Assembly: GCA_014238615.1 (NCBI GenBank)
Contig: JABAAT010000035.1
Location: 1-50,542 of the forward strand
From: Gammaproteobacteria bacterium
GTDB taxonomy: Bacteria; Pseudomonadota; Gammaproteobacteria; Porifericomitales; Porifericomitaceae
Length of the DNA stretch: 50,542 nt
Direction: 5' to 3'
The position numbers and the translations under genes are program-made. The first letter of the stretch is position 1. Every line of letters starts with the position of its first letter. Shown piece after piece: positions 12,033 to 16,945 of this stretch. The notes beneath the pieces were generated by a model. It did no database searches, had not been told where the DNA came from, and was given only the letters and a program-made list of their open reading frames with translations.

Positions 12033-13778
12033 ATGAACGAGCCAAAAAGCAAAGTGATGCGGGGTGCCCGCATCTTCGTGGAGGCCCTGAAGGCCGAAGG
12101 TGTACGCTACCTGTTCGGCTATCCAGGCGGCGCGGTGTTGCATCTCTACGACGAGCTTTTCAAGCAGGAAGGGCTGGAGCATATCCTGGTGCGCCACGAG
12201 CAGGGCGCTACGCACGCCGCGGACGGCTACGCACGGGTCAGCGGTGCGCCCGGCGTCGTGCTGGTCACCTCCGGGCCCGGGGTCACCAACTGCGTCACCG
12301 GCATTGCCACGGCCCACATGGATTCCATCCCCCTGGTGGTATTCACCGGGCAGGTGCCGACCGCGCTCATCGGTAACGACGCCTTCCAGGAGGTGGACGC
12401 GGTCGGGATTACCCGGCCCTGCGTGAAGCACAACTTCTTGGTGGAGAAAGTGGAAGACCTCGCGCTGACCATCAAGAAAGCTTTCTATATCTCAACGACC
12501 GGACGTCCCGGCCCGGTGGTGGTGGATCTCCCCAAGGATATCACCGCCGCGGAATGCCCTTTCAGCTACCCGGAGACGTTGGACATGCGTTCCTATAAGC
12601 CCGTGACACGCGGTCACGCCGGCCAGATCCGCAAAGCCGTGAAGCTGCTGTTGGCGGCGCGCCGCCCCATGATTTACAGTGGCGGCGGCGTGATTCTTTC
12701 CGGGGCCGCCAAGGTGCTGACCGATTTCAGCCGCCTGCTGGGCTACCCGGTGACCAATACCCTGATGGGGCTTGGCGGTTACCCGGGCACCGATTCCCAG
12801 TTCCTCGGCATGCTGGGTATGCACGGCACGTACGAAGCCAACCTGGCCATGCACCATTGTGACGTGTTGCTGGCCGTGGGTGCGCGCTTTGACGATCGCG
12901 TCACCGGTGACCTGGATAAGTTCTGTCCCGAGGCGCGCATCATCCATATCGATATTGACCCTTCCTGTATTGCCAAGAACGTGGATGTGGATATTCCCAT
13001 CGTCGGGGACGTGGGGCTTGTCCTGAAGGAAATGAAACAGCATTTGGATGAAAGCGACCGCAAACCGGATGCCGAGGCGCTGCAGGCATGGTGGAAGCGC
13101 ATTGAGACCTGGCGCGCGCAACAGTGCCTGGGCTACCAGCGCGACGCCAAGAAGATCAAGCCGCAGCAGGTGATCGAGACCCTTTATGAGATCACCGGCG
13201 GGGGCGCCTGCCTGACTTCGGACGTGGGCCAGCACCAGATGTGGGCCGCACAGTTTTACAAGTTTGACCAGCCGCGGCGCTGGGTCAGTTCCGGCGGCCT
13301 GGGGACCATGGGCTTCGGTTTGCCGGCCGCCATGGGCGCATACCTGGCCTGCCCGGAGCGAGACGTGGTGTGTATCACCGGCGAGGCCAGCCTGGTGATG
13401 TGTATCCAGGAGCTTTCCACTTGCCTGCAGTACGGTCTGCCCATCAAGATCGTGAATCTCAACAACCGTTACATGGGCATGGTACGCCAGTGGCAGGAAT
13501 TCTTCTACGCCGGGCGCTATTCGCACTCTTACATGGACGCGTTGCCGGATTTCGTCAAGCTCGCGGAGAGTTTCGGCCACGTCGGCATACGTGTTGAAGA
13601 GTCTGTCGAGATCAAGCCGGCGCTGGAGCGCGCCTTCGCGATGAAGGATCGCCTGGTGCTGATGGATTTCGTGACCGACCAGGAGGAAAACGTCTATCCC
13701 ATGATCGCGGCCGGCAAGGGACAGCACGAAATGGAATTGTCGCCCGAGCAGATTTCCCCCGACCGGGAGCTGGCCTGA
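12033..13778 (+). CDS. ilvB: Acetolactate synthase (acetohydroxyacid synthase) large subunit
   Basis: ThDP- and FAD-dependent enzyme forming acetolactate or acetohydroxybutyrate for Val, Leu and Ile synthesis. The 581-residue protein has GYPGGAVLHLYDEL, the catalytic Glu in VRHEQGATHAADGYAR, TSGPGVTN, the FAD-domain segment LGMLGMHGTYEAN and the ThDP motif ending LNNRYMGMVRQWQEFFY. The first metal-ligand position reads GEAS instead of the usual GD(G/A)S; from memory GE variants are common in beta- and some gammaproteobacterial enzymes, so I do not treat it as inactivating. Only a weak ribosome site precedes the ATG. It could be called ilvI; the pairing with ilvH is clear. Confidence 0.96.
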   Translation: MNEPKSKVMRGARIFVEALKAEGVRYLFGYPGGAVLHLYDELFKQEGLEHILVRHEQGATHAADGYARVSGAPGVVLVTSGPGVTNCVTGIATAHMDSIPLVVFTGQVPTALIGNDAFQEVDAVGITRPCVKHNFLVEKVEDLALTIKKAFYISTTGRPGPVVVDLPKDITAAECPFSYPETLDMRSYKPVTRGHAGQIRKAVKLLLAARRPMIYSGGGVILSGAAKVLTDFSRLLGYPVTNTLMGLGGYPGTDSQFLGMLGMHGTYEANLAMHHCDVLLAVGARFDDRVTGDLDKFCPEARIIHIDIDPSCIAKNVDVDIPIVGDVGLVLKEMKQHLDESDRKPDAEALQAWWKRIETWRAQQCLGYQRDAKKIKPQQVIETLYEITGGGACLTSDVGQHQMWAAQFYKFDQPRRWVSSGGLGTMGFGLPAAMGAYLACPERDVVCITGEASLVMCIQELSTCLQYGLPIKIVNLNNRYMGMVRQWQEFFYAGRYSHSYMDALPDFVKLAESFGHVGIRVEESVEIKPALERAFAMKDRLVLMDFVTDQEENVYPMIAAGKGQHEMELSPEQISPDRELA

Positions 13779-13789
13779 GCCGTCCCGCG

Positions 13790-15329
<1,540 letters not shown>

Positions 15330-15340
15330 AAGTAGTCGAT

Positions 15341-16084
15341 ATGGTGCAGTTGCAGTGGCGCGAGACGATCAGGCAGGCGGGGGTCGTGAGTCCCCCGTGG
15401 CGCATCCTCGCTCCCGAATCCCTGCCCTGGGTGTTCGGTCTGCTGCTGCTCGGGCTCCTTTCGTTCGTGTTCTATGGGTCTTTTTGGGTGCCGCTCGTGT
15501 TGTCGCTGGCGGTCCTGTTCATCTGGGTTTTTTTTCGCGAGCCCCGGCGCATCATACCGAATAAGCCGCTGGGCCTGGTCAGCCCGGTTGACGGCCGCGT
15601 CAGCGCGGTGGAGAAAACCCGCGCCCCCATGTTGGATTGCGAGATGATCCGGATCTCCATCCGGAAGTCCGCCTTCGATCCTTCCGCGCTTCGCAGTTCC
15701 ACCGAGGGTAGGGTGCGTGAGCAGAGCATCAGCCACCTGGAGAACGGCGGCTGGCGCTGCCTGACCCTGGTCGAGACCGACGAGGGTGATGCCGTGGTGC
15801 GGGTTGTCGTTCTGCGCCGTTTCCCGCAGCGCCTGCGCCTTTACATGCAGAGCGGCGAGCGTCTCGGCCAGGGCCAGCGCTGCGGCTTCCTGCCGCTGGC
15901 CGCCGCCGTGGAGTTCTATCTGCCTGTGAACAGCAACGTCAAGGTGCAGCCGGGGCAACGGGTGCTGGCTGGCAGCACGCTGCTCGGCTTTTTTGTGCAC
16001 AAAGAAGCGGTGAGCGCCGTCACGAACGGGGCGCGCTGCGGCAATGGCGCCTTGCCCGGAGTGGGCGTGTACGGCGGAGCCTGA
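15341..16084 (+). CDS. Phosphatidylserine decarboxylase-like membrane protein lacking catalytic residues
   Basis: The 247-residue protein has two N-terminal membrane segments (about residues 28-64) and then the Psd fold: FREPRRIIPNKPLGLVSPVDGRVSAVEK near the middle (given here in part) and VEFYLPVNSNVKVQPGQRV near the end. In short-form Psd enzymes the FGS(S/R)VD motif supplies the Ser for self-cleavage and pyruvoyl formation, and a His lies in HVNR. Here those positions read PLAAAVEFYLP and DPSALRS, so both appear lost while the SPVDG Asp remains. It probably cannot make phosphatidylethanolamine alone. It sits between ilvC (11 bases upstream) and pssA (3 bases downstream). Annotation pipelines would likely call it psd. 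Confidence 0.75.
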   Translation: MVQLQWRETIRQAGVVSPPWRILAPESLPWVFGLLLLGLLSFVFYGSFWVPLVLSLAVLFIWVFFREPRRIIPNKPLGLVSPVDGRVSAVEKTRAPMLDCEMIRISIRKSAFDPSALRSSTEGRVREQSISHLENGGWRCLTLVETDEGDAVVRVVVLRRFPQRLRLYMQSGERLGQGQRCGFLPLAAAVEFYLPVNSNVKVQPGQRVLAGSTLLGFFVHKEAVSAVTNGARCGNGALPGVGVYGGA

Positions 16085-16087
16085 TAC

Positions 16088-16945
16088 GTGCCCCAGGCGA
16101 CTGAACCGCGTCGGCGGCGCGGCATCTACCTGCTCCCGAACCTGGTGACCACCGCTTCGCTCTTCTCCGGATTTCTCTCCATTGTTTTCGCCGTCGGCGG
16201 CCAGTATGCCCACGCCGCCATGGCCATCCTGATGTGTGTTCTGCTGGACAACCTGGATGGGCGCATCGCCCGCATGACCCGTACTGAGAGCGACTTTGGG
16301 ATGCATTACGACAGCCTGGTCGATGTCATTTGCTTCGGCCTGGCCCCGGCCCTGCTGGTACACCAGTTCCTGCTCCGGGAGTTCAGTAAGCTGGGCTGGT
16401 TAACCGCTTTTCTGTTCGTCGCAGCAGCCACCCTGCGCCTGGCCCGCTTCAACGCTCAAGTAGGCAGCGCCGACAAACGTTACTTCCAGGGTCTGCCTTG
16501 TCCGGCGGCCGCCGCTTTGCTGGTCTGTTTCATATGGCTGGCTACCAGGCAGGGTCTGCCCGGGTATTCCCTGGCGGTGGTCGTATTCACCCTGACCCTG
16601 GGCAGCGCCGCCCTCATGGTCAGCACCTTCCGTTACTACAGCCTTAAATCCTTTGACTTTGCGGGTAGGGTGCGCTTTCTCACCGTGGCCGCCATCGCCC
16701 TGACCCTGGCTCTCATCGCTCTCGATCCTCCCCTGGTGCTGTTTCTTCTGACCTTGGCTTATACGTTTTCTGGAGTCCTGCTTACGCTCAACGAAAAACG
16801 CCGTCGGCGGCGGCGCAAGCGGGGCCACCGGGAGTCCTTGCCGACAGTACAGACAGTACAGGGTCTCACGGGAGATACCACCACGGATGCGGATTTTTCC
16901 GAGGACACCACCGACTCATTCGGGAACAAGGGAAAAACCGACTAA
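16088..16945 (+). CDS. pssA: CDP-diacylglycerol-serine O-phosphatidyltransferase
   Basis: Integral membrane CDP-alcohol phosphotransferase making phosphatidylserine from CDP-DAG and serine. The signature D-x2-DGxxAR-x8-G-x3-D-x3-D is present (DNLDGRIAR, then GMHYDSLVD). Several hydrophobic helices follow, and a basic segment KRRRRRRKRGH precedes a Ser/Thr/Asp tail. The 285 residues are typical for the Bacillus-type PssA. It starts at GTG three bases after the Psd-like stop, with GGAG inside that gene. It is the last gene before a 57-base convergent gap with mgtE. Confidence 0.94.
   Translation: MPQATEPRRRRGIYLLPNLVTTASLFSGFLSIVFAVGGQYAHAAMAILMCVLLDNLDGRIARMTRTESDFGMHYDSLVDVICFGLAPALLVHQFLLREFSKLGWLTAFLFVAAATLRLARFNAQVGSADKRYFQGLPCPAAAALLVCFIWLATRQGLPGYSLAVVVFTLTLGSAALMVSTFRYYSLKSFDFAGRVRFLTVAAIALTLALIALDPPLVLFLLTLAYTFSGVLLTLNEKRRRRRRKRGHRESLPTVQTVQGLTGDTTTDADFSEDTTDSFGNKGKTD

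Follow-up and report, generated by a model that had tools for sequence, protein, structure and literature searches.

The gene that we denote psdX encodes a relative of phosphatidylserine decarboxylase (Psd), the enzyme that forms the common membrane lipid phosphatidylethanolamine (PE), from which the catalytic serine and histidine are missing. It lies on a gammaproteobacterial contig of 50,542 nt (the window, by which we mean the whole stretch of DNA analysed), and comparison of its locus with those of sampled genomes confirmed, at the level of sequence, that it is not a one-off and belongs to a conserved, locus-bound family of predicted pseudoenzymes found across Gammaproteobacteria. Our leading interpretation, to which we give a little under an even chance, is that psdX acts as a membrane-anchored, non-catalytic partner in PE synthesis, in the first place of PssA, the enzyme of the step before.

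The psdX locus and its lost catalytic parts

psdX and pssA are packed tightly behind an ilvB-ilvN-ilvC-like cluster (12033–16945; names from sequence), an arrangement that ties genes for phospholipids to genes for branched-chain amino acids. The stop codon of ilvC and the start of psdX are separated by 11 nt, and the end of psdX and the GTG start of pssA by 3 nt. The features discussed below, in window coordinates, are as follows.

14316–15329, + strand: ilvC, upstream in the same cluster (name read from sequence)
15341–16084, + strand: psdX, Psd-derived, without catalytic Ser and His; 247 amino acids, ATG start
15413–15475, + strand: membrane hairpin helix 1, residues 25–45 (hydropathy, AF2 helix)
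15485–15532, + strand: membrane hairpin helix 2, residues 49–64 (hydropathy, AF2 helix)
15581–15595, + strand: SPVDG, kept, residues 81–85, with D84 at the position of E. coli D90 (alignment)
15683–15685, + strand: S115, in the column of the catalytic His of active-type short Psds (alignment)
15776–15793, + strand: TDEGDA, residues 146–151, the psdX form of the family motif TDExDD (alignment)
15854–15886, + strand: GERLGQGQRCG, residues 172–182, conserved, before the former cleavage site (alignment)
15896–15904, + strand: L186-A187-A188, replacing the FGS self-cleavage motif (alignment)
15968–15979, + strand: AGST, residues 210–213, not a cleavage site (alignment)
16088–16945, + strand: pssA, CDP-alcohol phosphatidyltransferase type, with an intact DxxDGxxARx8GxxxDxxxD motif

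The psdX protein matches PF02666 with 46.4 bits against a cut-off of 22 and would thus be annotated as Psd, as a preliminary description of this DNA had anticipated. None of the NCBIfam equivalog cut-offs was reached, the best match being the short-form model NF003680 with 107 of 262 bits. Throughout, we call a copy ‘active-type’ when the His and the Ser are both present and ‘divergent’ when one or both are missing; the active-type reference rows used for the cleavage column were selected on the same basis. Aligned with gammaproteobacterial short Psds that carry DVH or NVH together with FGSR, psdX has S115 in the His column and L186-A187-A188 in place of FGS, the pyruvoyl-forming GS being replaced by AA with A188 in the Ser column; D84 and D113 are retained. 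When short- and long-form Psd profiles are compared by hhalign, the His of the short form falls at that of the long-form DYH (E. coli H144), and FGS pairs with MGS. In E. coli Psd, as described in PMC7952604, Ser-254 turns into the pyruvoyl residue, and the H144A and H144N substitutions abolish decarboxylation, with no PE made.

These columns bear out the original claim of a Psd-like protein without the pyruvoyl-forming Ser and the catalytic His, and the absence of the residues for processing and catalysis agrees with its suggestion that the protein probably does not process itself. At the level of motifs, the reported replacement of FGS stands, the residues now reading LAA, and the AGST that had been placed at residues 219–222 in fact lies at 210–213. 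That AGST had also been named as a possible displaced cleavage site. We rejected it: it lies downstream of the old site, it occurs in 4 of the 107 divergent rows, and at its position active-type rows show no conserved GS.

Because the presence of both residues defines the active-type group, the His and Ser columns cannot serve as evidence for a split between the two groups. The substrate loop FxNA...NER, which was not used to define them, can: all 22 active-type rows have it and none of the 106 divergent rows does, the window's psdX included (this count, like the trees, omits 4 of 132 rows: G099, G125, G185 and G002). Part of this loop aligns with the phosphate-contacting loop of the long-form (E. 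coli) Psd. From the loss of the catalytic residues and of the loop we strongly infer that psdX is without decarboxylase activity.

The fold, the membrane hairpin and SPVDG are kept, as also first proposed. Hydropathy places a hydrophobic hairpin at about residues 26–68, the AF2 model (pLDDT 87.6, pTM 0.82) retains both the hairpin and the beta domain, and SPVDG stands at residues 81–85. The model aligns with the E. coli Psd beta chain (7cnx_A) with a Z score of 10.2 over 135 positions at 3.7 Å. Foldseek returned no solved structure for the psdX model at E ≤ 0.001 and matched two E. coli Psd chains with an active-type model; of the four best matches to psdX among viral models, three are named Psd, the first match being a ‘putative orfan’. 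The highest VIA-align Z score for the psdX beta domain was to EIIA-Glc (1f3g; Z 14.4, 127 aligned, 2.5 Å). The model of an active-type short Psd gives a similar top match (3our_B; Z 13.8, 122 aligned, 2.3 Å), so the likeness is a property of the Psd fold and not of psdX, and we dropped it as a functional clue.

With the short-form Psd/archaetidylserine decarboxylases (NF003680, TIGR00164; PF02666), psdX shares the N-terminal hairpin, SPxDG, the beta fold and the slot between ilvC and pssA, but it differs from them in having no pyruvoyl Ser, no catalytic His and no FxNA...NER loop. The long-form, E. coli-type Psds (TIGR00163; PDB 7cnw, 6l06) have a related fold, but to them psdX is a distant profile match without the catalytic residues. 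Of the properties that mark a Psd-fold pseudoenzyme, a kept fold and missing catalytic residues are seen in psdX itself, and purifying selection is seen in pairs of its relatives.

Spread and selection across Gammaproteobacteria

The window protein was matched in 46 of 142 other relatives, and a pattern scan of genome contigs with alignment A2 confirmed 287 relatives, of which the best 80 were kept. With profile A1, at least 127 of 370 sampled gammaproteobacterial genomes have a family match, a lower bound because this count scored no more than 8 candidates from each genome and eight genomes with short-type PF02666 scores (G009, G040, G076, G120, G146, G226, G309 and G388) fall outside this set. 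We read 126 of these loci, the one left unread being a partial match (G306). Divergent copies occupy 103 loci from 50 family codes, a weak outlier (G099) included, and active-type copies the other 23; no family code holds both. If this assignment is right, about a quarter of the sampled gammaproteobacterial genomes (103/370) hold a Psd relative that cannot be counted as Psd in pathway models. A search within the open-licence PMC literature, covering the titles and abstract starts of the matches listed, found no described family of inactive Psds. When 125 loci were merged into a 110-row alignment, in which 101 divergent and 8 active-type rows were counted and L158 was left out, the His of the divergent rows was found replaced by Tyr (64) or Phe (32), and the Ser was kept in 19.

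The ilvC–psd–pssA gene order recurs in most loci read. ilvC lies upstream of 98 of 103 divergent and 20 of 23 active-type copies, and pssA downstream of 99 of 103 and 17 of 23, respectively, counts that include loci at contig ends (there is room on the ilvC side in 102/103 and 22/23, and on the pssA side in 103/103 and 22/23). Other genes stand downstream in the divergent loci of G078, G201 and G169, whose pssA is elsewhere in the genome; in G162, no further ORF of the sought size follows psdX before the contig end. Among active-type loci, four of family code f58 (L150, L230, L221 and L225) have a short Psd after ilvC with no adjoining pssA seen. In L150, an RlmI-like methyltransferase gene (name from sequence) follows, and the pssA of that genome is on another contig.

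In midpoint-rooted trees, one change suffices between the active-type and divergent groups; the separating branch has an SH-aLRT of 95 with all columns and 33 with the motif segments left out. Of 16 divergent pairs, 13 gave dN/dS values of 0.105–0.272 and three were saturated; of 5 active-type pairs, 4 gave 0.035–0.116 and one was saturated. The pairs were hand-picked among close tree pairs, and no close relative was found for the window's gene itself. Similar losses in 103 of 126 loci, together with purifying selection in the measured pairs, argue that the losses in psdX are neither chance nor the mark of a broken gene, and the divergent copies are probably kept by purifying selection for another function. 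That psdX is a decaying relic without function seems to us scarcely credible. Selection on divergent pairs is relaxed relative to active-type pairs, and among the three genes set side by side psdX has the greatest mean distance, as a relic would; but in none of the 13 divergent pairs with finite dS does dN/dS come near 1, and rows representing up to 50 family codes share newly fixed columns.

These new columns emerged from a conservation count that compares 107 divergent with 22 active-type rows and omits three rows. E122, D147, E148, D150, R174, G176 and Q177 are present in 0.92–1.00 of the divergent rows versus 0.09–0.36 of the active-type rows; D147 and E148 reach 1.00 and D150 0.95, versus 0.23–0.36. 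Four positions fixed in active-type copies, F 108, N 137, E 138 and Q 156 in window numbering, are relaxed in the divergent ones. TDEKDD is already found in three active-type copies (L152, L097 and L102), so the TDExDD motif may predate the catalytic loss. One reading of this pattern is that psdX binds a lipid or its headgroup (PS, PE or CDP-DAG) as a sensor or carrier, or has some other enzyme activity, and has no fixed protein partner. A kept fold in which the old active-site columns are relaxed and the near-invariant charged residues E122, D147, E148, D150 and R174 have been gained would suit such a role. However, the divergent rows have lost the segment that lines up with the loop through which E. 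coli Psd contacts phosphate, and the conserved adjacency to pssA would be left unexplained; we consider this reading quite unlikely.

Long-form Psd in the window's genome and its relatives

The genome of the window (1.67 Mb, 99.3% complete) holds a second PF02666 protein, encoded on contig C65 downstream of trp genes (names read from sequence). It scores 174 bits with TIGR00163 against a cut-off of 111.75 and carries intact DYHRVH and MGS motifs. Both motifs recur in every one of 31 long Psds retrieved, made up of this protein and the 30 with the best scores. The supposition that a true Psd would be found elsewhere is upheld by this protein, and the opposite possibility, a genome with no other psd, falls with it.

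A long Psd is present in 98 of 103 divergent genomes versus 0 of 23 active-type genomes (Fisher p ~1e-20), a p-value that overstates the association because the tree may hold a single transition and the genomes are not independent events. Presence was read by hand from best E-values: the 28 genomes whose best match was no stronger than 1e-48 count as having no long Psd, and G248, at 4.3e-49, counts as having one.

Neither PF02666 nor the long-Psd profile detected a long Psd in G002, G003, G090, G191 and G232 of the class sample or in G001, from outside it. All six genomes have pssA and keep psdX with it, and three of them (G001–G003) belong to the window's family. Possible explanations are that the assemblies miss the long Psd, that PE has been lost or that PE is made otherwise. 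A synteny check for long psd in the three family members found, in G001, SURF1-, SCO- and CtaA-like genes (named from their sequences) after trpC, with no psd there; in G002, a stretch after trpC that runs through repeats to the contig end; and in G003, no trpC match. It is plausible that the window's family has lost the long psd, with assembly gaps as a further possibility. The repeats in G002 (L254:1-522, downstream of trpC at the contig end) code for low-complexity frames and a GIY-YIG-like ORF (name from sequence), and may explain why the assembly breaks there.

Genomes of this kind might be served by divergent members, perhaps those that keep the Ser, that still decarboxylate PS by a modified mechanism. 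Ser is kept without His in 15 of the 103 divergent copies of the class sample, and the E. coli His mutants still cleave themselves to some extent, given time. Yet those mutants form no PE (both points from PMC7952604), and all 15 genomes with a Ser-keeping copy have a long Psd. The psdX copies of the six genomes in which none was detected lack the Ser and are therefore poor candidates for an active enzyme, and in the window protein the Ser, the His and the loop are all missing. We regard residual decarboxylation as very improbable.

Candidate partners and a proposed history

Across 98 divergent loci, the divergence of psdX is correlated with that of pssA once ilvC is controlled for (partial r 0.45, a value that none of 500 permutations attained), and its partial correlation with ilvC, controlling for pssA, is −0.03; differences in GC do not account for the psdX–pssA correlation. 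Such a correlation is no mark of the dead form, because 15 active-type loci show the same (0.44). When long Psd is included, for 28 genomes, psdX tracks pssA (0.24; 14/500), long Psd (0.21; 26/500) and ilvC (0.21; 9/500) about equally, so correlated divergence does not settle the partner. The preliminary description had suggested that psdX may be a scaffold for PssA or a regulator; adjacency and the correlated divergence in 98 loci fit that suggestion, but the 28 genomes do not single out PssA. None of the 107 rows in which pssA was hit showed a psdX–pssA fusion. Type II pssA is present in 353 of 370 genomes, and at least 226 of these have no psdX-family match, so PssA has no general need for psdX. 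We also tried co-occurrence with type II pssA as a clue to the partner, which proved uninformative with pssA in so many genomes.

AdoMetDC belongs to a fold family other than that of Psd. In trypanosomes, a dead AdoMetDC paralogue, the ‘prozyme’, activates the active paralogue, according to PMC5201418, and is thus, like psdX, a catalytically dead relative of a pyruvoyl decarboxylase; the partner of the prozyme is its active paralogue, whereas the gene neighbour of psdX is PssA. With this precedent for a dead pyruvoyl-enzyme paralogue as an activator, psdX might partner the long-form Psd in place of PssA and modulate its membrane docking or processing. The presence of a long Psd in nearly all divergent genomes and the similar tracking of long Psd and PssA in the 28 genomes are consistent with that partnership. 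We nevertheless consider it unlikely: psdX adjoins pssA, and the long psd of the window's genome is on another contig; psdX persists with pssA in G001 and in five divergent sampled genomes where no long Psd was detected; and the long and short Psds are distant from each other. Gene position, together with the persistence of psdX and pssA in those genomes, tips the balance to PssA, short of proof.

For psdX as a non-catalytic partner of PssA, we propose that the hairpin would anchor the protein in the membrane and that the beta domain, with its new acidic patch and GERxGQGQR stretch, would dock on PssA; docked psdX could then tune or stabilise PssA, or help to pass PS on. A bolder version, possible and in our view doubtful, is that psdX serves integral-membrane PssA across much of Gammaproteobacteria as a dedicated subunit for its regulation or assembly, the enzymatic job having passed to a long Psd and the formerly PssA-facing surface being the selected function. 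If that were true, PS and PE synthesis would have a control point hidden under the name ‘phosphatidylserine decarboxylase’.

The ancestor would have been an active short Psd in the ilvC–psd–pssA slot, as in other Gammaproteobacteria. Where a long Psd was present, decarboxylation by the short copy would have been redundant, and the short copy may then have lost the His along with the substrate loop, and in most cases the cleavage Ser too, with the gene retained. The His would have been lost early and the Ser would have drifted later, since nearly all divergent copies are without the His and about a fifth still have the Ser. We infer the direction of this change, from active to dead, from function. 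The series of loci offers a natural before-and-after set, in which active-type copies in genomes without a second Psd can be compared with dead copies in genomes with one; if our reading is right, it also offers a testable handle on PS/PE control in bacteria with an integral-membrane PssA.

One copy, L181 (G361), branches on the tree as the sister of the active-type set; it keeps FGSRVD and has Tyr in place of the catalytic His, and its genome also holds a strong PF02666 match. It is possibly an intermediate between the active-type and divergent forms.
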